DNA of 35,979 nt from Deltaproteobacteria bacterium. GTDB lineage: Bacteria; Myxococcota_A; Polyangia; Polyangiales; Houyiibacteriaceae. Position numbers and translations under genes: made by a program. Each line of letters starts with the position of its first letter. The stretch's first letter is position 1. The notes under the pieces were generated by a model. The model searched no databases and was not told the DNA's origin. It saw nothing but the letters and a program-made list of their open reading frames with translations. Positions 1,725 to 25,263 of the stretch are shown piece after piece. The stretch covers positions 1 to 35,979 of the forward strand of contig SHLP01000025.1 in assembly GCA_004283055.1 (NCBI GenBank), in the 5' to 3' direction.

Positions 1725-3605
1725 ATGTCCCGCATTCGAATGCTCGGACCCAGAGAACGGCTGCAGTCGTGCCTGGGCTGCGTCCAGGACGTCGGTCTCG
1801 TTCAACTGATCGAACCCGTTGAGACGGAGTCCTTGACGCCTCTCGGTCTGAGCGTCGAACAGGAGCACCACATGCGCAGCGTGCGCAAAGTGGTGGAAGA
1901 CGTCGACGGGGCGCTCGAGCTTCTCGGGGCGACACCCGATCCACCGAAAACAGCCGAAGCCTTGCCGCTGGCGAAGGCCGCACTGATTGCGGGCCGGAGC
2001 CGGAGGCGGCTCGAAGCTTTGGAAGAGAAGCGCCTCCGCCTCGAAGAGGAGCGCGCACTCATCCTCAAGTTTCGCCCCTTCTTTTCAGCGTTTCGCAAAA
2101 TCGGAGACTCGGGTCTCGACCTCGACGGCATTCGGGTGTTCTACCTGGTACTGAGAGAAGGCGGGGAGCAAGAGCTTCGCCGTATGCGCGCCGCGCTTCG
2201 CCAAGCCCTCGGAGATGGGTTCGAGCTCCTCAGCCAGCCGTCGGAGTCCGGCGAATCGGCGATGCTGCTTGCCGTGCCGACGGCGGACGCTGCCAAAGCC
2301 GACCAGCTGCTCAGTGAAGCGGGCGTGCAATCACTCTCGCTGCCCGACGAGTTCGAGGAGGAGGGCGTCAGCTCAACGATCCGACGCATGCAGGCTCGAT
2401 TGGACGAGCTGCCCCAGGCCCTTGCGGCCCTAGATCGCGAGCGCGCCCGAATCGCCCGCGAGCGCGGGCGGCAGCTCGCATGGATTCAGGCGAGCGTTCG
2501 AGATCACCTCGCTACGGTCGAAGCCATGGACAAAGCCGTGGTGACGCCACGAGCCTTCGTTCTCGAAGGCTGGGTGCCCAAAGCGGTCCAGGCCGAGCTG
2601 GAACGGAAGCTCGGTTTGTGCTGCGGTCCGGGGTTCGAAATCGAGACGGTGTCTTCCGAAGACTGGTCGGGCGACACCGTCCCGGTCGTCCTCAAAAACC
2701 CCCGTCTCTTTCGTCCGTTCGAGACGATTACACGCATGATGCCGCTGCCGAAGTACGGGACGGTCGATCCCACGCCGTTCGTCGCAGTCTTCTTCCCCAT
2801 GTTTTTTGGAATCGTGCTCGGCGACATCGGCTACGGGACGATTTTGGCTGCGGTGTCCCTCATCTTGCGTCTCAGGTCGCGAGCCGACACGACCTTGCGA
2901 TCGATATCCGAGATCGGCCTCGCTTGCTCCTTGTTCGCAATCATCTTTGGCTTTCTATACGGCGAGCTATTTGGCGATCTCGGGCACAAAATCGGCCTCC
3001 ATCCCCTCATCTTCAATCGTGAAGAAGCGTTTTTCCCTTTTCTGGGACTCGCCATCGCGCTGGGGCTCGTTCACATCGTCGTCGGCCTGCTGGTGGGCGC
3101 CGTCAAGATGTTTCGCGGAGACAAGCGACGCGCAATCGGAAAGGGCATGGCGGCCGTGATGGTCGTCCTCATCGCGCTAGCGCTCATGGCGGCCTTCGAT
3201 ATGCTCCCGACGCGGTTCTTCACCCCATTGGTGATCGCCACCCTGGTCGCCCTCCCAGTCTTGATCATTGGCGAAGGCATCCTCGCGCCCATCGAGTTCG
3301 TGTCCACGCTGGGCAACGTCCTTTCGTACGCGCGCATCATGGCCGTGGGCACTGCGTCTGTAATGATGGCGGTCGTTGCAAACCGAATGGTCGGAGCGTT
3401 TGGCTCGGTGCTCGTGGGTATCCTCTTCGCCCTCGTGTTTCATCTGATCAATTTCATCTTGGGTGTGTTCAGCCCGACGATTCACGTGCTGCGGCTTCAC
3501 TACGTGGAGTTCTTTGGAAAGTTCTACAGTCCGGGCGGTGCGCAGTACCGACCCTTTCGACACTGGTCCGCGCGCGAAAGCGCTTCTGACGAGAGGAGCG
3601 AGTGA
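1725..3605 (+). CDS. V/A-type ATPase subunit I (membrane stator, subunit a homologue)
   Basis: Stator subunit that provides the ion half-channels next to the K ring. The N-terminal half (to about residue 330) is soluble and largely alpha/coiled coil, opening with the typical SRIRMLGPRERLQ strand-helix. The C-terminal half has about seven or eight membrane segments. The stretch around 2780-2850 (FFPMFFGIVLGDIGYG) is the conserved start of the membrane domain, and LGNVLSYARIMAVG near 3315-3350 contains the conserved Arg-bearing helix. Length (626 residues) is normal. The ATG at 1725 matches the family N-terminus; a TTG at 1713 preceded by GGGG would add four residues. The gene ends 1 base before the K-subunit ATG. 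Confidence 0.93.
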   Translation: MSRIRMLGPRERLQSCLGCVQDVGLVQLIEPVETESLTPLGLSVEQEHHMRSVRKVVEDVDGALELLGATPDPPKTAEALPLAKAALIAGRSRRRLEALEEKRLRLEEERALILKFRPFFSAFRKIGDSGLDLDGIRVFYLVLREGGEQELRRMRAALRQALGDGFELLSQPSESGESAMLLAVPTADAAKADQLLSEAGVQSLSLPDEFEEEGVSSTIRRMQARLDELPQALAALDRERARIARERGRQLAWIQASVRDHLATVEAMDKAVVTPRAFVLEGWVPKAVQAELERKLGLCCGPGFEIETVSSEDWSGDTVPVVLKNPRLFRPFETITRMMPLPKYGTVDPTPFVAVFFPMFFGIVLGDIGYGTILAAVSLILRLRSRADTTLRSISEIGLACSLFAIIFGFLYGELFGDLGHKIGLHPLIFNREEAFFPFLGLAIALGLVHIVVGLLVGAVKMFRGDKRRAIGKGMAAVMVVLIALALMAAFDMLPTRFFTPLVIATLVALPVLIIGEGILAPIEFVSTLGNVLSYARIMAVGTASVMMAVVANRMVGAFGSVLVGILFALVFHLINFILGVFSPTIHVLRLHYVEFFGKFYSPGGAQYRPFRHWSARESASDERSE

Positions 3606-3606
3606 G

Positions 3607-3834
3607 ATGCAATTAGAGACGGTTTTCCTTTACCTGAGCGCAGCGTTGGCGGTGGGCATTCCAGCACTCGCCACCGCGTGGGCTCAATCCCGAATCGGCC
3701 CGGCGGCCGCGGCGGCGCTTGCGGAGAAACCAGAGCTCACGGTGACGGTCGTGCTGCTGATCGCTATTCCGGAGACGCTCGCGATTCTCGGGTTCGTCAT
3801 CGCGGTCCTGATCCTGATGCAAGGAGGAGGCTGA
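3607..3834 (+). CDS. V/A-type ATPase subunit K (rotor proteolipid, two-helix form)
   Basis: A 75-residue membrane hairpin forming the ion-carrying rotor ring. Two hydrophobic helices flank a polar loop (AEKPEL, residues 39-44). The second helix carries the ion-binding carboxylate in IPETLAILGF (Glu56, followed by Thr57). The first helix has Gln27 in AWAQSRIG, aligned by eye with the Gln that helps bind Na+ in sodium-type c/K subunits. It is the short two-helix version, half the size of the four-helix K of Enterococcus. The ATG at 3607 sits one base after the subunit I stop, with GAGGAGCGAG upstream as ribosome-binding site. Confidence 0.92.
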   Translation: MQLETVFLYLSAALAVGIPALATAWAQSRIGPAAAAALAEKPELTVTVVLLIAIPETLAILGFVIAVLILMQGGG

Positions 3835-3841
3835 GGCGGCG

Positions 3842-4423
3842 ATGGCCGGTTCCGACCTCGATACCGAGCTGCGCCGCGCAGCCAATGAGACGGCAGAGTC
3901 CATTCTGAATGCGGCCCGGGGTGACTCCGAACGCGTGGTGTCCCAATCGCAGCGGGCCATCGAAGACAGGCGAAGGGAGCTGATGGCGCGCAAAGAGGCA
4001 GAGTATGGTGCAGAGGCCCGCCGTGCGATCGCCGCGGAACGGCATAACGCCATGCGCGCGGTACTGATCGCGCGGACTCGGGTCGTCGACCGAGTGCTCG
4101 AACGGGCCCGGGCGCTTCTTCCAGACGCTGCCACCGACGAGCGCTACCGCGCATCACTCGACGCACAGCTCGCCGAAGCATTGAAGTTCGTCGATGCCGA
4201 TGATGCCGTAGTGCGCTGTTCGCCGGCGCTCGAAGCCTCCGTCCGGAAGGCCCTATCCGCTCGGCCGCGCGTCCGAGTCGAAGCCGATTCGGAGATGGGT
4301 ACGGGCTTCAACGTCGGAGACGCCTCCGAGTCGGTGCTCGTGGACTGTCAGCTAGAGACGCGGATCGACCGCTTGACGCCCTCGTTAGCCATCGAGATCC
4401 ATGCGCGCCTGCGGGAGCTCTAG
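3842..4423 (+). CDS. V/A-type ATPase subunit E (peripheral stalk)
   Basis: A 193-residue protein with the two-part layout of subunit E. A long charged N-terminal helix (about residues 1-85) would pair with the G/H-like subunit, and a compact alpha/beta C-terminal domain would dock on top of the A/B hexamer. The end of the protein (GTGFNVGDASESVLVDCQLE, then DRLTPSLAIEIHARL) matches the conserved E-subunit C-terminus. AAGGAGGAGG at 3821-3830 gives a strong ribosome-binding site upstream of the ATG. It lies between K and C as in Thermus-type operons, so the assignment is supported by both sequence and position. Confidence 0.9.
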   Translation: MAGSDLDTELRRAANETAESILNAARGDSERVVSQSQRAIEDRRRELMARKEAEYGAEARRAIAAERHNAMRAVLIARTRVVDRVLERARALLPDAATDERYRASLDAQLAEALKFVDADDAVVRCSPALEASVRKALSARPRVRVEADSEMGTGFNVGDASESVLVDCQLETRIDRLTPSLAIEIHARLREL

Positions 4424-4425
4424 CG

Positions 4426-5442
4426 ATGGCGAAGTACCTGGGCGACCTCAACGCACGTGCAAGAGGGCTTCATACGCACTTGCTTTCACCCTCGGAGCTG
4501 GTGCGCCTTGCGGGGGCCACGAGCCTGCCCGCGCTTCACAGGGAGCTCAGCTCGCTCGGGTTCGTGGCGTCCGATTCGCCAGCGACGGCGGCGAGCCTCG
4601 AGAGCTCAATTCGCCGTCACACAGCCCGGCAGCTGAGGGTGCTCGATCGCTGGTGCGGCGATCGCCGTCGGCTGGCCTTGTCGGTGCTTTTCGAGGACGA
4701 GGATCGGCGATCGATTCAGCGTATTTTGCGCGGCGCAGAACAAGGGGTCTCATCCGAAGCACGGATGGCGGGCTTGGTGCCGACGGCAAGTCTCTCGGAA
4801 CGCGCTCTGTTTACGCTGGCGAGTCAACCCACGCCGGCAGACGTGGTACGAATGCTTCTGCTGTGGAGCCACCCTTTCGGTCCACCTCTCGTCGAAGCCG
4901 CGAGCCGAGCCTACCCCTCGCTCTTCGAGCTCGAGATTGCGCTCCAGCGTGCGTTCGCTAGACGAGCGTCGACGCGAGCGCGCGAAGGAGGCCCACAATT
5001 GGTCGAGTACGCGGAACAAGTCATCGACCTCATGAACGCCTGGTCGGCCTTGTTGCACTTCGCCGAGCGGGACCCAAAGCTCACCGAGCTGACGTTCGTA
5101 GAGGGAGGGCAGTGGATCACGCGGCCCGTGTTCGACAAGCTGATGGGTGCGTCCACCCGCGAAGACGTCGAGAAGGAGCTCGGATGGGTGCTCCGCAAAT
5201 CTGCGCTGGCTCCTGTCTTTCGGGATGGAGTCGATGAGATTGCAGCGTTGGAAAGCGCTGCCCTTCGGGCACAAATCGCCTGGCAACATCGATCGATGCG
5301 GATCGACCCCAGCAGCGCCGCGCCCGTCATCGGATTCGTGATCGAGCTTCGCGCTCAGGCACTGAGCTTGCGACGAATAATCTGGGGCGTTGCCCTTCGA
5401 GCTCCTGCTGCCCTCATCCAAGGAGACATGGTGCTCGCATGA
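4426..5442 (+). CDS. V/A-type ATPase subunit C (V0 subunit d / rotor socket)
   Basis: A 338-residue, mostly helical soluble protein. It is the adaptor that couples the central shaft (D, F) to the membrane K ring. The sequence fits the vATP-synt_AC39 family: an N-terminal segment with ARARGLHTHLLSPSELVRLA, and repeated helical bundles with FEDEDRRSIQRILRGA and the closing IGFVIELRAQALSLRRIIWG. Length is typical. The start is 2 bases after the subunit E stop. The last four bases overlap the subunit F start (ATGA at 5439-5442), indicating coupled translation. Confidence 0.9.
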   Translation: MAKYLGDLNARARGLHTHLLSPSELVRLAGATSLPALHRELSSLGFVASDSPATAASLESSIRRHTARQLRVLDRWCGDRRRLALSVLFEDEDRRSIQRILRGAEQGVSSEARMAGLVPTASLSERALFTLASQPTPADVVRMLLLWSHPFGPPLVEAASRAYPSLFELEIALQRAFARRASTRAREGGPQLVEYAEQVIDLMNAWSALLHFAERDPKLTELTFVEGGQWITRPVFDKLMGASTREDVEKELGWVLRKSALAPVFRDGVDEIAALESAALRAQIAWQHRSMRIDPSSAAPVIGFVIELRAQALSLRRIIWGVALRAPAALIQGDMVLA

Positions 5443-5768
5443 GGGAGCAACGACTCGTAGTGATTGCAAGCCATGGCTTGAGCGCTGGATTTGCACTGGC
5501 CGGAGTGCCCGTATTCGAGGAAAGAAGCGGTGAGGACGCCGCAGCGCGGATCGAAGGGTGGACCGAAAGCGACAGCGTCGCGGTCGTCCTGATCGACGAG
5601 CCGCTCTACCGGAACATTCCAGAGGAGGTTCGGCGAGGGCTCCAGCAAGCGGGTCTTCCAGTCGTCATCCCCGTCCCAGGGCCCGACTGGACGTCGGAGG
5701 CTACGGCCCACGAGTACATCGTCGAGATCCTGCGCCGTGCGATTGGCTATCGAGTGAGGCTTCAATGA
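5439..5768 (+). CDS. V/A-type ATPase subunit F (central shaft)
   Basis: A 109-residue small alpha/beta protein matching subunit F, which binds subunit D in the rotating shaft and helps control coupling. The N-terminus carries a Rossmann-like strand pattern (LVVIASHGLSAGFALAGVPVFE). A central VAVVLIDEPLYRNIP segment resembles the conserved V-x-I-T-E region of the family, and PVVIPVPGPDW follows. Start and stop both overlap neighbours in ATGA junctions (5439-5442 with C, 5765-5768 with A), so its amount is probably tied to that of C and A. Confidence 0.88.
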   Translation: MREQRLVVIASHGLSAGFALAGVPVFEERSGEDAAARIEGWTESDSVAVVLIDEPLYRNIPEEVRRGLQQAGLPVVIPVPGPDWTSEATAHEYIVEILRRAIGYRVRLQ

Positions 5769-9542: not shown

Positions 9543-11078
9543 TCAGCGAGCGCGGCGGCGGCGCCAATACCGTGCGCCGAGTCCTAAGAGCACCAGAAGC
9601 ACTCCGGTGTCCTGATCGGACGCGGTCACGACCCGGCAGCTGCAGCCGCTGCGGCTCGTGCCAGGTTCGGGCGGCTCCGCCGCTCGAAGCCATATGTAGC
9701 TGCCGATCGTGACTGGGTCGACCGCGGCCACGACTTGGTGTCGGTAGCGGTCCTCTCTTTCGGCCGGCGCATCGACGATCAATTCATGGGTAAATGGGTC
9801 AGTGTCGATCGATTCGGTTTCGAGAACGACGCCGTTCTTGATCACCTGGAGGGTGTTCCCTGTTCCCCCCGTCACCCGCACCGATAGCGTGGCCGTGTCG
9901 GCGAAGACAGTGTTGCCTACGCGCTCGCCGCTGAGCTCCGTTTCGAGCATCGGGTCATCGATACTCTTCACCTTGATGACGGTCCGACCGGCTCGAACAC
10001 CTTCGAGAATCGCGTCAACGCTCAGATTTTCCGCGAAGACCATGGTGGTGGGCATACCAATCGGGCTGTAGAGGACGCCGCTCCCGTCACCGGCCTGATG
10101 ATCATCGCTTCCGCCGACCGCGGTCGCGTGCGAGCCCTCGACACACATCTGCTCCCAGTAGGCGATCGCATCCCAAATGCCGCCCTGCGCCTCGAGGCCG
10201 TCGATGGTACGAGGGTCGACTTCGATTTCCCAGGGGCAGCCGATGCAAAAATTCCCGCCCGGGACCGTGGGGTGATTGATCGAAAAGAGCGCGCTCTGCG
10301 CCTGATACGCTTCAATCGCCCCCTCGACGGTGACGCCGCGCACACCCACCTTATGGTCGACCCAGTCGATCGCGCCAATGGCGTTGGCGTGCCCAGCGTA
10401 CGTCGTCCACTCGACCCCCGGGACGATGAGAAGCTTCGGGAAGTCCGGTTGCACGCTCCCATAGAGCGTGAGCCCGCTGTTGGTGTTGTGCTCGGAGAGC
10501 ATGACGAAATCGAGCCCGGCCTCCTCCGCGAACTCCAACGTATTGGAGATGCTTGGACTCGCGTCGCCACTTTGGCGCGAATGCACGTGGAAGTCGCCGG
10601 CGTACCAGCGCGCTTCGCTATCGAGGACGCCGGGATCCTCGTAGGGCATGCGGGGCTGCGGCGGCAAGGTCGGCTCCGTCCGCAGAATGACGCAGACGTC
10701 GTACTCGGCCGGTGTCTCGATGATCTGAGCCTTGCCGACCACGACCTCCCAAGTTCCCGCGGGCATGAGTCCCGGTACGTAGCTTCTCGATGCGGCTTCG
10801 ATGCCTACGACGGCAGGCTCGCTGTTCCCTCCGCCCCAGCCGCGAAACCCGTTCGGGTCGTCGAGCCCCCAGTCGAGGATGTTCTCCGAGGAGAGGTCGT
10901 CGTGCCGGACTTCGATTTCGGCAATGTCCGCGGGAACCTCGAAGGGCAAAAAGAAATGGGTCTCGGGACCGTCGGGCACCGTGCCTTGGATGATTAGCCC
11001 GGGGCAGGGGTCCTGCGCACGGGCCGCGCTGGCAGCGAGCACGAAACCGGCGGCCAGCCAGAGAAGATGTAACGGCAT
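9543..11078 (-). CDS. Secreted PHP-domain (CehA/McbA-type) metallohydrolase with MYXO-CTERM-like tail
   Basis: A 511-residue exported protein. It opens with a signal peptide (hydrophobic run LLWLAAGFVLAASAARA, likely cleavage before Gln-Asp). A beta-rich region resembling bacterial pre-peptidase C-terminal domains (about residues 25-130) follows. Next is a PHP-type metallohydrolase domain with metal-ligand motifs GDFHVHS, LSEHNT, PGVEWTTYAGHANAIG, INHP and GGSDDHQ, as in CehA/McbA-family phosphoesterases/hydrolases. A second beta domain precedes the tail. The C-terminus has GCSC, a hydrophobic segment and RRRRAR, matching the MYXO-CTERM sorting signal, so surface anchoring is likely. Substrate unknown. 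Confidence 0.85.
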   Translation of the reverse strand: MPLHLLWLAAGFVLAASAARAQDPCPGLIIQGTVPDGPETHFFLPFEVPADIAEIEVRHDDLSSENILDWGLDDPNGFRGWGGGNSEPAVVGIEAASRSYVPGLMPAGTWEVVVGKAQIIETPAEYDVCVILRTEPTLPPQPRMPYEDPGVLDSEARWYAGDFHVHSRQSGDASPSISNTLEFAEEAGLDFVMLSEHNTNSGLTLYGSVQPDFPKLLIVPGVEWTTYAGHANAIGAIDWVDHKVGVRGVTVEGAIEAYQAQSALFSINHPTVPGGNFCIGCPWEIEVDPRTIDGLEAQGGIWDAIAYWEQMCVEGSHATAVGGSDDHQAGDGSGVLYSPIGMPTTMVFAENLSVDAILEGVRAGRTVIKVKSIDDPMLETELSGERVGNTVFADTATLSVRVTGGTGNTLQVIKNGVVLETESIDTDPFTHELIVDAPAEREDRYRHQVVAAVDPVTIGSYIWLRAAEPPEPGTSRSGCSCRVVTASDQDTGVLLVLLGLGARYWRRRRAR

Positions 11079-20175: not shown

Positions 20176-20616
20176 ATCTCAAGCAAGATATTCGTAGGGA
20201 ACCTCAACTTTGCCACGACCGACCAAGAGCTGCGTGAGCTCTTCGGAGAAATCGGAGAGGTTGTTGACGTTCACATCCCAAAGGACCGTGAATCTGGCCG
20301 CCCGCGGGGGTTCGCATTCGTCCGATTCGCAGCAGATGAGCACGCGCAGCAGGCCGTCGAGAAGTTCCACGGTCGTGAAGTCGGTGGTCGTGATTTGCGA
20401 CTCGATATCGCGGAAGACCGTCCACGGCCCCCGCGTCAACGCCGTGATTTCGGCGGCCCTCCGCCTGACCGCTACGATCGTGGCGGCGACCCAGGTGGCG
20501 ACTTCGATCGTGGCGGGAGCTACGACCGGGGTGGCGGGGACGGTCGCTCGTACGACCGGCCGAAAAAGCCCAAAGGCAGTCGCCGCGGGCTGCGCGGCAA
20601 GAAGCGAAGCCTGTAA
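20176..20616 (+). CDS. RRM-type RNA-binding protein with probable ATC start
   Basis: A 146-residue protein. One RNA recognition motif spans about residues 4-80, with RNP2 IFVGNL and RNP1 RGFAFVRF. A Gly/Arg/Asp-rich tail (repeats of DRGG) and a basic end (KKPKGSRRGLRGKKRSL) follow, a layout common in bacterial cold-shock-type RRM proteins. In this frame a TAA stands at 20170-20172 and no ATG, GTG or TTG occurs before 20395, which would delete the RRM. ATC at 20176 gives (M)SSKIFVGNL, the usual N-terminus of the family, and sits 6 bases after GGAG (20166-20169). The start is therefore most likely non-canonical, or an ATG altered by a base error. Confidence 0.85.
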   Translation: MSSKIFVGNLNFATTDQELRELFGEIGEVVDVHIPKDRESGRPRGFAFVRFAADEHAQQAVEKFHGREVGGRDLRLDIAEDRPRPPRQRRDFGGPPPDRYDRGGDPGGDFDRGGSYDRGGGDGRSYDRPKKPKGSRRGLRGKKRSL

Positions 20617-20867: not shown

Positions 20868-21320
20868 ATGAGCGCTGGAATTCGGCCTCGAGGGGTGCAG
20901 CGCCCGACCCTCTGGTATGGTCGCTGGCGGCGCATGCGAGGGGGACGATCGAGCTTGGCGAGCCTCGGCCTAGGCCATGGGGAATCCGTGGAGTTCTGGG
21001 TCCGCGGGAGCTGCATGCGAACCTTGGGAGATGGGCAATCGGTCCAGGTGCGCAGGCAGCGGCTCTATCTGCCCGGTGATGTGATCGTAGTGCGGCGCCG
21101 CGATCACTGGAACGCGCATCGATTCCTGGGCTACGCGCCCAGCGTGCACGGTCTGGTCGCGCTCACGCAGTCGGACGACGCGGCCGAACGGGACCCTGCG
21201 GCCCCCACGAGCGCGATCGTGGGTCGGGCGACATGCGAGGTCCGCGTCTCGGATCGACTGGCAGCGCTCGGAAGGTACGGCCGCGCCGTCATCCGCCGAG
21301 TGACTGGGGTCGGGCGATGA
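20868..21320 (+). CDS. S24/S26 peptidase-like protein, Cys at the Ser position
   Basis: A protein of about 150 residues with the compact beta fold of LexA/signal-peptidase relatives. The pattern VRGSCMRTLGDGQSVQV (residues 45-61), then LPGDVIVVRR and AHRFLGY, then AIVGRA matches the S24/S26-like proteins often encoded next to PqqD and HprK-like genes. The expected G-x-S-M nucleophile motif reads GSCM, so Cys49 sits where the Ser should be. It may be a leader peptidase for the peptide encoded downstream, or a non-catalytic binding protein. The start is uncertain (ATG 20868, GTG 20895 or ATG 20934). It overlaps the kinase gene by 4 bases. Confidence 0.65.
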   Translation: MSAGIRPRGVQRPTLWYGRWRRMRGGRSSLASLGLGHGESVEFWVRGSCMRTLGDGQSVQVRRQRLYLPGDVIVVRRRDHWNAHRFLGYAPSVHGLVALTQSDDAAERDPAAPTSAIVGRATCEVRVSDRLAALGRYGRAVIRRVTGVGR

Positions 21321-22183
21321 GCGAGCTCAGCATCGAATTCGCGGGCGCCCGCTACCGGTTTGCTGGATTGAACCCAGCGCAGGATGGCCTAGTGCGTGCG
21401 CGATTTCGAGCATTGCTTTGCAGGGATGATGCCAAGCCCGATGTTCGGATAGACATCCACTTCGACCCCAACTCACCCGCCTTCATGCGGAGGCCATCCG
21501 GACCCGTCGAGTATCCACTTGCCGTAGTGCCCGGCGACGAAAGTATCGCCGTCGCGGGCGCCGGCTTCACGGCCAACATCGACCGCAGCCCGTTTCGTGC
21601 GCAAATGCAGACCTGCCTCAGCGACGATTGGTTCGTGGCTGCCTTCGAGAACCTCTTTAGGATCATTGCCTGCCACCGGCTCTTCAACGAAGGGGCGCTG
21701 GTCATGCATAGCGCGGCCTTCACGGACGGGGCTCGCGGGTTCCTCTTCTGCGGGCGCTCAGGCGCCGGTAAAACCACCCTCTGCGGCTTGGCCGACGCGC
21801 TCGACCTCGAAATACTGAGTGACGAGCTGAACGCAATTCGGCCTCGAGGCGGTTCGTTCGAGCTTCTCGCCATGCCATTTGCAGGTGACTTCGGCGGGGA
21901 GCCACGGCGCCACCCACCCTACCCGCTCACCGGCCTGCTTGGCCTTCGCCAGGGTGGCGAGACGTCGTTGAGCGTCTGCTCGAAAGCCGAAGCGGTCTCG
22001 CGTATCGTCGCCTCATGTCCCTATCTGAACGCCGATCCGCAGCTCGTCGACGAGTTGGCTTCACGCGTAGAACGGCTCGTACAGCGACACGAACTGCGCA
22101 TTCTCGCATTCACAAAGGACACCCGTTTTTGGAAAGTGTTGGACAATGAGTACCGAGAGCGAGCCACCGCGGTATCGCGTTGA
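21317..22183 (+). CDS. HprK-like serine kinase of a RiPP-type cluster
   Basis: A 288-residue protein whose second half resembles the C-terminal kinase domain of HPr kinase. The P-loop is CGRSGAGKTTL (about residues 144-154), followed by LEILSDELNAIRP, which contains the Mg2+-binding acidic motif. The N-terminal half (to about 125) is unrecognised beta-rich sequence. Stand-alone HprK relatives in peptide clusters, such as those of phosphorylated lasso peptides, phosphorylate the C-terminal Ser of the precursor. No HPr or PTS gene is nearby. ATGA couples it to the upstream gene, and it overlaps the PqqD-like gene by 38 bases. ATG 21317 is chosen over longer options. Confidence 0.8.
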   Translation: MSELSIEFAGARYRFAGLNPAQDGLVRARFRALLCRDDAKPDVRIDIHFDPNSPAFMRRPSGPVEYPLAVVPGDESIAVAGAGFTANIDRSPFRAQMQTCLSDDWFVAAFENLFRIIACHRLFNEGALVMHSAAFTDGARGFLFCGRSGAGKTTLCGLADALDLEILSDELNAIRPRGGSFELLAMPFAGDFGGEPRRHPPYPLTGLLGLRQGGETSLSVCSKAEAVSRIVASCPYLNADPQLVDELASRVERLVQRHELRILAFTKDTRFWKVLDNEYRERATAVSR

Positions 22184-22427
22184 ACCACACGCACGGTTTC
22201 GCGTGATGGGAGACGAAGGTGTCTTCGTGCTTCAGGAGGCGGGCGAGGTGCTCGTCGTGAACGCGGTCGGCGCCTTCATCGTGGAGCAGCTGCAGGCCGA
22301 GCGAAGCGTCGAGGAGATCGTCATCGCCGTGACGGATCGTTACGCGGTCGACCAGGATCGCGCGCAGGCGGATGCAAGGTCTCTCCTCGACGCGCTCCTC
22401 GGGGCAGGCGCGATCAGACAAGCATGA
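22146..22427 (+). CDS. PqqD-like peptide chaperone
   Basis: A 93-residue protein matching the PqqD/RiPP-recognition-element fold: three beta strands (FRVMGDEGVFVLQ, EVLVVNAVGAFIVEQL) followed by helices (SVEEIVIAVTDRYAV, DARSLLDALLGAGAI). Such proteins bind the leader of a ribosomal peptide and present it to the radical SAM enzyme. It lies directly between the kinase and the radical SAM gene and overlaps both (38 and 4 bases), so the three are almost certainly co-translated. Confidence 0.88.
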   Translation: MSTESEPPRYRVEPHARFRVMGDEGVFVLQEAGEVLVVNAVGAFIVEQLQAERSVEEIVIAVTDRYAVDQDRAQADARSLLDALLGAGAIRQA

Positions 22428-23488
22428 GTTACTCCAACACGATCAAGCGCGCGTGGACCGAGAACCGACTGATGTCGGTCCTCCTGGAGCTCACCTACGC
22501 CTGCAACCTCGACTGCACGTTTTGCTACAACGACCTCGCGCGCCCTGGACAGCCCCTCTCTCTCACCCAATACCGGCAGCTCCTCGACGACCTGGCCAAG
22601 CTCGGGGTTCTAAACCTCTCTCTCAGCGGCGGGGAGCCGCTCGCCCATCCGCGCTTTTTCGATATCGGGAGCCATGCCCGAAGCCTTGGATTCGTCATCC
22701 GGCTGAAAACCAACGGCCATGCCGTCAGACCCGCGATGGCCGAAAGGATTCGAGAGGAAATCGACCCTTTCGTCATCGAAGTCAGTGTCCACGGGGCGAC
22801 GGCAGAAACCCACGATCGACAGACCCGCGTCGCCGGAAGCTTCGAGCGTCTCGTCACGAACATCCGGACCATGAAGTCGCTTGGGCTTCGCGTGAAAGCC
22901 AACAGTGTCCTGACTCGGTGGAACGAGCACGAGGTCGAGGAGATGCTCGCGCTCTTCAACGAGCTCGGTCTTCTGTTTCAAGTCGACCCCGAAGTGAAGC
23001 CGAGAGACGATGGCGATCGGAAGCCCTTGGAAATTGCGGTCAGCGCAGACGGACGAGCTCGCTATCGTCGCGCACTCGCGGCACTGGCGGCCGAGGGCGA
23101 GGCCGACATCGATGCCGCGAGGCCTGAAGCCGAGCGGAGACCGCCCGCCGCGCGGACCGACAAGCACTGCGGCGCAGGATCCAACAACCTCGCGATCGAT
23201 CCGTACGGAAGCGTGCTGCCCTGCGTGCAATGGCGTGTTCCCGTTGGCAACCTTCACGATCGGCGGATTGCCGAGATTTGGCAGAAATCACGCGAGCTCC
23301 TGGGGGTTCGGGAAACGACAACGGCGGCACGGCGCATGCTCGAAGGCCTTGGTGACGCCGCGGTCGGCTCTAATTTCTGCCCGGGTGCAGCCCAGGTCTA
23401 CTCGGGCAACCCGCTGGCGCTCTACCCTGCGGTAGAGCAGAAGATCGACGAGTCGGCTCGCGCGCGGCTCCGACTTACTGTATTGTAG
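22424..23488 (+). CDS. Radical SAM/SPASM-type peptide maturase
   Basis: A 354-residue enzyme. The radical SAM CxxxCxxC motif is CNLDCTFC (Cys27, Cys31, Cys34), with the GGEP SAM-binding motif in SLSGGEPLAHP. The C-terminal region carries Cys249 (HCGAG), Cys267 (LPCVQW) and Cys319 (NFCPG) in the SPASM/twitch pattern, with IDPYGSVLPC and VGNLHDRRIAEIW. It is expected to hold one site-differentiated cluster plus at least one auxiliary cluster, and to install a radical-based modification (crosslink, epimerisation or similar) on the peptide encoded 15 bases downstream. Which modification cannot be told. ATGA overlap with the PqqD-like gene. Confidence 0.92.
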   Translation: MSYSNTIKRAWTENRLMSVLLELTYACNLDCTFCYNDLARPGQPLSLTQYRQLLDDLAKLGVLNLSLSGGEPLAHPRFFDIGSHARSLGFVIRLKTNGHAVRPAMAERIREEIDPFVIEVSVHGATAETHDRQTRVAGSFERLVTNIRTMKSLGLRVKANSVLTRWNEHEVEEMLALFNELGLLFQVDPEVKPRDDGDRKPLEIAVSADGRARYRRALAALAAEGEADIDAARPEAERRPPAARTDKHCGAGSNNLAIDPYGSVLPCVQWRVPVGNLHDRRIAEIWQKSRELLGVRETTTAARRMLEGLGDAAVGSNFCPGAAQVYSGNPLALYPAVEQKIDESARARLRLTVL

Positions 23489-23503
23489 CGCGCAAGGGGA
23501 AAC

Positions 23504-23671
23504 GTGGAACGAAAGAACACCAGCAGCTCAGGCGAAGGGCCGAAGCGCGAGCCGTATGAGCCGCCTCGAATCGTCTATCGCGAGCCTTTGGAAGCCGTCG
23601 CTGTTGCCTGCACGACCGAATTCGCCAAAGGCAACCCAGGCGCGTGTCCGGTCGGTCCCGTTTCGTCCTGA
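23504..23671 (+). CDS. Putative RiPP precursor peptide (55 residues)
   Basis: A small gene starting at GTG 23504, with AAGGGGA at 23494-23500 as ribosome-binding site, 15 bases after the radical SAM stop. The peptide has a charged, Ser-rich start (MERKNTSSSGEGPKRE), a middle PYEPPRIVYREPLEAVAVAC that looks like a leader with a helical recognition segment, and a C-terminal part TTEFAKGNPGACPVGPVSS, a plausible core with Cys36 and Cys48 and a Ser-Ser terminus. It is unrelated in frame to its neighbours and has no hydrophobic signal. The assignment rests on position, size and composition; no database comparison was possible. Confidence 0.72.
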   Translation: MERKNTSSSGEGPKREPYEPPRIVYREPLEAVAVACTTEFAKGNPGACPVGPVSS

Positions 23672-23687
23672 GCGACGAATCGGGCTC

Positions 23688-24521
23688 TCAGGGCCGTCGA
23701 ATCTTGTGAAGAAGCGCCCTGGCGCCCGATCGAGCCGCCCTTGGGAGGGAGTCGTTCAGCGAGTGCGCGAAGAGAGCGCCGCGACGCGAGACAGCAGGCG
23801 CGTTGTGCAAGCCCGAGGATGCTAGCGTGGCGATGCATGCACCCACCGGATCGAACGGGAGGCTGCTGTGGACCTTCGCAGCAAATGGCTCGTTCATCGT
23901 CTGGTGTACCAAGGGCAGTACATACCGCGAGACACGCCGCATCCCACAATCCACGAGGTGCTCCGCGACGGTTTCGGCCGGCAGGTCGATCCGGCTCGCC
24001 ATTCGGGCGATCTCGTCGAGCCGGCCGGTCGCGCGGCAGTCGAGATGGTCGCTGCCGAATTTTCCAATGAGGTGCGCGTAAGCGTCGAGCGGTGAAGGAA
24101 GGATGACGTGCGCCGAATAGAGACGGGTGTCTTCGGTGCCCCGCGCGAATAGCTCCGCGGTTCGCAATCGGTAACGAGCGGCGTCGAAAAGCGAGGGGTG
24201 AAGATCGAGCGCAAGGCCGAACGGTGTGTGCAGGACGACCGCGCCGAAACTGGGGCGCAGCAGGGTGCGATAGCCTGCTGACGCGAGCTGTCTCACCGCT
24301 CGCTCCAAATCCTGCGGCAGAACGAGCAGATCGACATCGGTCAACGGTCGGTCGGTCGGATCATCGTAAAGCCAGTGCTGGAGGAGTGCGCCCTTGACCG
24401 GCATCACCCGAATTCCGGGCTCAGCGAGCCTGCGCGCCACGTCACCCACCAGCGCGTCGGCCGCCATCGAGGTGGCTGCGCGAAGTCGGGCAGAATTTCG
24501 ATCGGCCGTGGGTCGTTGCAC
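23688..24521 (-). CDS. Nucleotidyltransferase-family protein (NTP_transf_5 type)
   Basis: A 277-residue protein with the minimal nucleotidyltransferase signature of this family. VMPVKGALLQHWLYDDPTDR leads into PLTDVDLLVLPQD (metal-binding Asp-x-Asp) and later ALDLHPSLFDAARY. Genes of this family often sit in clusters with PqqD and HprK-like genes, and in one lasso peptide pathway a homologue helps decorate a phosphorylated C-terminal Ser. Here it converges on the precursor gene, with 16 bases between stops and a CCTGAG/CTCAGG inverted repeat (23667-23692). The start is GTG 24521; ATG 24467 is an alternative. Confidence 0.8.
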   Translation of the reverse strand: MQRPTADRNSARLRAATSMAADALVGDVARRLAEPGIRVMPVKGALLQHWLYDDPTDRPLTDVDLLVLPQDLERAVRQLASAGYRTLLRPSFGAVVLHTPFGLALDLHPSLFDAARYRLRTAELFARGTEDTRLYSAHVILPSPLDAYAHLIGKFGSDHLDCRATGRLDEIARMASRIDLPAETVAEHLVDCGMRRVSRYVLPLVHQTMNEPFAAKVHSSLPFDPVGACIATLASSGLHNAPAVSRRGALFAHSLNDSLPRAARSGARALLHKIRRP

Positions 24522-24579
24522 TCTGGAAATCTCTTCGTACTCGGTATAAATGAGCCCGCTTCGGTGGTATAGAGCGCCG

Positions 24580-25263
24580 ATGGCTACGCATCAAAGGCTT
24601 GGCGACCTCGCAGAGGCGCTCGAAGCGGAAGGGGCGGACGAGCTCCGAGTTCACGTGGTTCGCCGCGCGCGCGAGTTCAAGCGCTCGTGGGTCATGATGG
24701 CCGAGGCGCTCGTCGAGGTCCGGAATCGGGAATCGTATCTGAGCTGGGGCTACGAAGACTTCTACTCGTACTGCTCGCTCGAGCTTCAGCTCAAGCAGGC
24801 GACCGCCGACAAGCTCACCGGCTCCTACGTCGCGCTGAAGCGGCATGCACCGTCCGTTCTCAAACGCGACGGGCTCAACGAACGCATCCCGACCTGCGAC
24901 GCGGTCGACTACTTCGCACGAGCGCTCCGCAAGGACCCAGGCGGCGATGCGCCGCCCGAGCGCGCTGTGCCTCAGGGCGTCGTCGACCAGCTCCGGGAGG
25001 CCGTCTTCGAGGAAGGCGCGCCGGTGACCGAGCTGCGGAAGCGGTTCAACCCCGTGTTCAATCCGAAGCCGGAAGGCGCCGAGCAGATGGACGCGATTCG
25101 ACGCGCAACCGCGGCGGCCAGGCGGCTGGAACGAATGGTCGAAGAGATCGATGGCCTGCGCCGCCCGATGGTCCGCTCGACCCTGGAGACGCTCGAGGCA
25201 CTCCGCGAAGACCTGACGGAGCTCCTGGAGCGGACCAAGGCCCAGTACGCAAAGTCCGCATGA
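24580..25263 (+). CDS. Conserved-looking hypothetical helical protein
   Basis: Not recognised. A 227-residue soluble, highly charged and mainly helical protein with no signal or membrane segment. The first half includes an aromatic-rich stretch (YLSWGYEDFYSYCSLELQL, about residues 50-68). Its helix pattern resembles small DNA- or protein-binding domains. The last third (ARRLERMVEEIDGLRRP to LTELLERTKAQ) is likely coiled coil. The gene is followed after 15 bases by the DUF35 gene, so it may be co-transcribed. ATG 24580 is preferred to ATG 24550, which lies inside a TATAAAT sequence. Long antisense frames here look like GC-driven shadows. Confidence 0.65.
   Translation: MATHQRLGDLAEALEAEGADELRVHVVRRAREFKRSWVMMAEALVEVRNRESYLSWGYEDFYSYCSLELQLKQATADKLTGSYVALKRHAPSVLKRDGLNERIPTCDAVDYFARALRKDPGGDAPPERAVPQGVVDQLREAVFEEGAPVTELRKRFNPVFNPKPEGAEQMDAIRRATAAARRLERMVEEIDGLRRPMVRSTLETLEALREDLTELLERTKAQYAKSA

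Follow-up and report, generated by a model that had tools for sequence, protein, structure and literature searches.

The stretch analysed here, 35,979 nucleotides of contig SHLP01000025.1 (hereafter the window), comes from the draft assembly (4.3 Mb in 293 contigs) of an uncultured member of the Myxococcota. Between positions 20868 and 24521 it carries six genes that, on the strength of their sequences, we consider almost certain to form a pathway for a ribosomally synthesized and post-translationally modified peptide (RiPP), built around a radical S-adenosylmethionine (SAM) enzyme and a small precursor peptide. That the peptide is also modified at its C-terminal serine by the HprK-like kinase of the cluster is held with less assurance and is regarded as probable.

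The gene cluster and its precursor peptide

Five genes on the forward strand are followed by one convergent gene on the reverse strand, in the order S24/S26-like protein, HprK-like kinase, PqqD, radical SAM enzyme, peptide and nucleotidyltransferase:

20868..21320, + strand: putative S24/S26-like protease, 150 residues; AlphaFold/Foldseek fold and hidden Markov model (HMM) alignment, no Pfam or NCBIfam match
21317..22183, + strand: predicted HprK-like peptide kinase, 288 residues; alignment, phosphoenolpyruvate (PEP) carboxykinase/HPr kinase fold, weak HprK_rel_A match
22146..22427, + strand: PqqD-type standalone leader-binding chaperone, 93 residues; PF05402, E 3e-13
22424..23488, + strand: radical SAM enzyme, 354 residues; PF04055 and PF13186
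23504..23671, + strand: precursor peptide MERKNTSSSGEGPKREPYEPPRIVYREPLEAVAVACTTEFAKGNPGACPVGPVSS, 55 residues, GTG start; conserved in 13 loci
23555..23602, + strand: leader motif YEPPRIVYREPLEAVA within the peptide; invariant residues, with a presumed role in recognition
23609..23668, + strand: putative core Cys36 ... Cys48 ... Ser54-Ser55-COOH; approximate leader/core boundary
23688..24521, - strand: PF14907 nucleotidyltransferase, 277 residues; PF14907, E 1e-22, with conserved TDVD (DxD) and LDLH motifs

All six genes lie where the original prediction had placed them, and the junctions that it described are exact. ATGA overlaps join the S26 and HprK genes (21317-21320) and the PqqD and radical SAM genes (22424-22427), the HprK and PqqD genes overlap by 38 bp (22146-22183), and the GTG start of the peptide gene, preceded by AAGGGG, is found 15 bases past the radical SAM stop. 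The prediction did not mention that the nucleotidyltransferase is encoded on the opposite strand; being convergent, this gene falls outside the five-gene operon.

A small gene is present near the radical SAM gene in all 13 loci compared, which comprise 12 from the first searches, the window included, and one in another family of the same order. It should be mentioned that most of the genomes compared in this work are metagenome assemblies. The peptides share the pattern Y-x-x-P-x-[IV] ... PLEAxA-x-x-C ... C ... S-COOH, with Cys36, Cys48 and the C-terminal serine kept in 13/13 loci. The original prediction had depended on the radical SAM homologues being followed by a similar small gene, and the same C-terminal motif was indeed recovered in every locus. 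Within the leader motif the invariant residues are Tyr18, Pro21, Glu27, Leu29-Glu30-Ala31 and Ala33, and this segment is the probable recognition element for PqqD and the radical SAM enzyme. A QLEA variant occurs on a 4.3-kb contig labelled Gammaproteobacteria (L024), which carries a kinase, PqqD, a radical SAM gene and a precursor encoded convergently on the opposite strand; it may reflect either horizontal transfer or a misbinned contig, its taxon label resting on 4.3 kb. Pairwise ratios of nonsynonymous to synonymous substitution (dN/dS) against the window peptide are 0.09 for an 83%-identical cluster, 0.24 and 0.29, and changes at third codon positions dominate among the differences, pointing to purifying selection on the peptide. 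A chance open reading frame was ruled out by the conservation and the codon-position bias. The window peptide has no match in Pfam or NCBIfam.

The same gene set recurs in 8/19 genomes of the window's genus and also in other genera, an association far beyond chance. In the family, represented by 34 genomes, exactly the same 11 are selected by the radical SAM enzyme (E <= 5e-91) as by the kinase (E <= 5e-40), and the next matches in the family fall to 2e-39 and 2e-13, respectively. In a phylum sample of 379 genomes, close homologues of the two proteins are found in the same seven, which the precursor profile also selects at E < 1e-11, and no sampled genome has a close homologue of one module without the other. 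Such complete co-occurrence argues for a shared pathway, although, the genomes being related, the single cases are not independent of one another. Linkage is broken in two of them. In G054, PqqD, radical SAM and peptide genes are on one contig and the S26, kinase and nucleotidyltransferase genes are together on another; in G002, the S26-kinase pair is on a second contig (the unlinked loci of the two genomes are L086, L105, L095 and L106). Retention of both kinase and radical SAM enzyme without linkage again argues for a shared function. The scattering of PqqD and HprK genes, named beforehand as a sign that would speak against a common pathway, is not seen for PqqD, which in close relatives always adjoins the radical SAM gene; HprK lies apart in the two genomes just described, yet is kept there. 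A search of plasmids returned distant radical SAM matches only. At L095 of G002 (3325-5463), the gene directly upstream of PqqD, in the place of the kinase, encodes a peptidase of the C25 family that ends in a MYXO-CTERM-like tail.

Distant loci with a kinase, PqqD and a radical SAM gene were reached through weak matches to the precursor profile; an S26 gene is usually present in them and a nucleotidyltransferase sometimes. Related S26-HprK-PqqD-radical SAM-peptide loci occur across Myxococcota. With a widened profile, a small gene of the pattern Y-x-x-P-x-V ... E ... L ... C was found in most of the distant loci. These matches are not independent because part of the seed came from the same loci, and the weakest of them (E above about 0.01) depend on motif and position alone. 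An encoded precursor conserved beside modifying enzymes, as expected of a RiPP, is seen in 13/13 loci and in most of the wider ones. By manual count, about 24/34 precursors end in Ser or Thr. Nine wider-family precursors were without NCBIfam match, so that no named precursor family applies to them. At L080 (5955-9722, G115), a distant cluster, the radical SAM and precursor genes are separated by the gene for a predicted lipoprotein of 1255 residues, in which FG-GAP and fibronectin-type repeats occur.

The enzymes and a proposed pathway

The radical SAM protein contains PF04055 (E 8e-24), with the motif CNLDCTFC, and the SPASM domain PF13186 (E 2e-8). PqqD-type proteins hand leaders to radical SAM enzymes, as established for pyrroloquinoline quinone (PQQ), and the PqqD of the cluster provides the leader-binding element (a RiPP recognition element, RRE, or PqqD) expected of a RiPP pathway. 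The only cysteines in the auxiliary domain are Cys249, Cys267 and Cys319 (C-x17-C...C), whereas outside the window's clade almost every radical SAM enzyme has further SPASM cysteines after the first pair. The window's clade appears to have lost the cysteines of the second cluster, leaving a twitch-like domain that we read as the derived state. In profile searches of the PDB, PqqE (6c8v) is the best match (E 5e-22) and SkfB (6efn) follows with E 1.5e-18, both over most of the length, and the auxiliary domain alone also resembles BtrN (4m7t). SkfB, the sactisynthase of the sporulation killing factor, is a twitch enzyme (PMC6231123), and a radical SAM enzyme with a SPASM/twitch domain, as expected of a sactipeptide cluster, is present here. 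The invariant Cys36 and Cys48 would permit a Cys-to-alpha-carbon thioether; given two invariant cysteines in the core, such a bond is the simplest guess at what this enzyme makes, and it is put forward tentatively.

The kinase matches the NCBIfam HprK-related models weakly (TIGR04352, 20.7 bits vs a cut-off of 200). Its structural model, with a predicted local distance difference test score (pLDDT) of 88.5, adopts the PEP carboxykinase/HPr kinase fold, and the sequence displays the motifs HSA...GRSGAGKTT...SDEL...AGDFG. In the alignment His131, Lys152 and Asp169 are invariant and Asp191 is nearly so (one Glu). A P-loop kinase fold is thus combined with the His-Lys-Asp-Asp pattern of HPr kinases and lasso-type kinases, which, as described, resembles the catalytic motif of PadeK. 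For paeninodin, the C-terminal serine of the precursor is phosphorylated by PadeK; in pseudomycoidin, PsmN attaches a hexose to the C-terminal serine phosphate (review PMC9266682). Because a kinase and a nucleotidyltransferase are likewise paired here and the C-terminal serine is invariant, C-terminal phosphorylation with subsequent capping is our leading hypothesis. By this analogy, phosphorylation of the serine is reasonably probable, and further capping of the phosphate would be close to an even prospect but somewhat short of it. The nucleotidyltransferase gene is found in linked clusters; in one split genome it is located beside HprK and S26 instead.

The model of the S24/S26 protein has a pLDDT of 70, and its best Foldseek matches are the LexA C-domain and signal peptidase, at E 2.6e-3 and weaker. 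The matches are individually weak, and the S24/S26-like assignment, made by fold only, is a cautious one. HMM profile alignment puts Cys49 on the catalytic serine of LexA/signal peptidase. The Ser nucleophile of S26 signal peptidases is therefore missing, G-S-Cys49-Met replacing the usual G-x-Ser-Met, and His84-Arg85 is conserved. Cysteine is found in the window's genus, G010 and G054, serine in G011 and G002, which belong to the same peptide clade, and the S26 proteins of other cluster types have Ser in G-x-Ser-Met; we read the cysteine as the derived state. For leader removal the cluster offers a single candidate protease, the S26 protein, and its acting in this role is quite possible, if a little less than probable.

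What the sequences themselves show is the gene content of the cluster, the conservation and joint occurrence of its genes, purifying selection on the peptide, the conserved cysteines and serine of the peptide, and the families of the proteins; from this we infer every chemical step of the following pathway. PqqD would bind the leader motif and deliver the precursor peptide to the radical SAM enzyme, which, with a single auxiliary cluster, would oxidatively crosslink the core, most likely forming a thioether via Cys36 and/or Cys48. The HprK-like kinase would phosphorylate Ser55, and the PF14907 nucleotidyltransferase would load the Ser55 phosphate with a sugar, as PsmN does, or a nucleotide. 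The S26-like protein, with Cys49/His84 replacing the usual serine, would cleave the leader.

Several points weigh against parts of this pathway. A twitch domain does not predict the reaction, BtrN being a dehydrogenase and MoaA acting on GTP (PMC6231123). The likeness of the kinase to PadeK is one of described motifs. In about 10/34 precursors the final residue is Pro, Glu, Phe, Val or Gln despite the presence of the kinase, so C-terminal phosphorylation would be of limited generality, and kinases of this family do not necessarily modify the last residue in every case. Confidence in the S26 model is moderate, its fold matches are weak, and catalysis by its Cys variant is a prediction only. To these may be added the opposite orientation of the nucleotidyltransferase gene. 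Finally, neither a dedicated exporter nor an immunity gene was identified among the cluster genes, for which reason the "full" modification pathway of the original prediction goes slightly too far, while its reading of the locus as a RiPP pathway is supported.

The radical SAM enzyme may instead perform other core chemistry, such as C-C crosslinking, decarboxylation, epimerisation or a PQQ/mycofactocin-type rearrangement, with the cysteines serving as a disulfide or metal site; we regard this as a real possibility, if a lesser one. PqqE is the best match in the PDB; in NCBIfam, PqqE and the mycofactocin maturase appear among the matches, every one of which is far below cut-off; and twitch/SPASM enzymes catalyse diverse reactions (PMC6231123). 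However, only a few core residues of the precursor are invariant, and the two cysteines belong to them. PQQ-type precursors use Glu/Tyr, and mycofactocin uses a C-terminal Val-Tyr; neither is conserved at the C-terminus of the window-type precursors.

The separation of the kinase/S26 and radical SAM modules in G054 and G002 could also mean that kinase, nucleotidyltransferase and S26 protein are a regulatory or envelope-modifying system merely located beside a radical SAM/PqqD/peptide cluster, and NCBIfam HprK-related families, e.g. HprK_rel_A, have no radical SAM tie by name. This is improbable, given that kinase and radical SAM enzyme co-occur completely at high score even where unlinked, and that most of the distant loci once more combine kinase, PqqD and radical SAM enzyme, an S26 gene usually being present as well. 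Still less credence is given to a lasso peptide variant, which we dismiss almost entirely. Lasso clusters share the kinase/nucleotidyltransferase/PqqD-like set and the C-terminal serine (review PMC9266682), but the lasso B2-type transglutaminase-like leader peptidase PF13471 has no match in the whole genome, on which ground the lasso assignment was rejected. An asparagine-synthetase-like lasso cyclase is likewise missing among the cluster genes, the rest of the genome not having been searched for it, and a radical SAM enzyme holds the central place in the cluster.

Chromosomal site and significance

In the cluster-bearing congeners that were checked, the cluster is flanked by genes for an RRM protein (20179-20616) and a 237-residue protein (24550-25263). 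These two flanking genes are adjacent in G028 and G029, roughly 300-350 bases apart. In G018 (L151, 545-1318), which is cluster-free, a 21-residue S26 remnant runs in frame into the gene for the 237-residue protein and is a sign of deletion, likely a scar. The same interval in G021 (L149, 3068-8388) and G014 (L150) is occupied by a different radical SAM-PqqD-kinase(HprK)-PF14907 cluster, whose candidate precursor in G021 is Tat-like and Cys-rich (RRHFLKAAAYTAPAIL...CNPSTCMPGDCNPNGCNPLNC). With such differing contents, the locus varies between related genomes. Elsewhere in the window (9546-11078), a secreted PHP-domain-like protein (weak match) with a MYXO-CTERM-like C-terminal sorting tail is encoded.

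As a bolder conjecture, unlikely as it stands, the locus might represent a new Myxococcota RiPP class, in which a radical-SAM-crosslinked peptide has a phospho- or glycosyl-phospho-capped C-terminal serine and is processed, in the window's lineage, by a protease of signal-peptidase fold with a Cys nucleophile, encoded at a site where relatives have another peptide cluster or none, in the manner of a locus for competition or self-recognition.

One conserved pathway here unites lasso-type tailoring (kinase and nucleotidyltransferase) with a radical SAM/PqqD core, in an architecture that is phylum-wide and not an isolated cluster. With the precursor, its fixed residues and a minimal enzyme set defined, the products become accessible to production and mass spectrometry. 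Within one family some enzymes have a full SPASM domain and others a twitch-like one, which offers a comparison for the role of the second auxiliary cluster; the S26 proteases, differing in Ser or Cys, offer one for the role of the nucleophile.

Comparison with known systems

The original prediction could match this combination of tailoring steps to no named class. The cut-offs of the named NCBIfam systems compared below are not reached. The combination is not a one-off, being one branch of the phylum-wide architecture. The open-licence literature, judged mostly from titles and abstracts, contained no description of the architecture. The SynChlorMet cassette brings together the HprK-like ScmC, the PqqD relative ScmD, radical SAM/SPASM proteins, of which it has two, and a small peptide. 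This cassette (ScmA-F) was rejected on the scores of its enzyme models ScmC, ScmD, ScmE and ScmF, all far below the NCBIfam cut-offs (ScmC 11.3/125, ScmD 24.5/100 and ScmE 78/400 bits); no papers on SynChlorMet were found in the open-licence literature. GeoRSP, mycofactocin and PQQ were also below cut-off (76.8/400, 102.5/265 and, for PqqE, 99/381 bits). Graspetides (PMC8939145), a possible literature lead, were set aside.

The PQQ system (PqqA, PqqD, PqqE) resembles the window cluster in having a separate PqqD and a radical SAM enzyme acting on a small precursor. In contrast, PqqE has a full SPASM domain, the system is without kinase, nucleotidyltransferase and S26 protein, and the precursor chemistry differs. 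To our knowledge, these same three proteins have no counterpart in the SkfB system. SkfB, like the window enzyme, combines a radical SAM and a twitch domain and acts on a leader-bound, Cys-containing precursor; its leader-binding domain is fused and it has a CXC pair for the auxiliary cluster (PMC6231123), whereas PqqD is separate here and a single Cys follows. The paeninodin and pseudomycoidin systems (PadeK, PsmK, PsmN) share with the window a kinase, a C-terminal serine, a nucleotidyltransferase-like protein and a PqqD-like B1 protein. However, what those enzymes tailor are lasso peptides, which B2 and C proteins produce; in place of B2 and C the window cluster has a central radical SAM enzyme.

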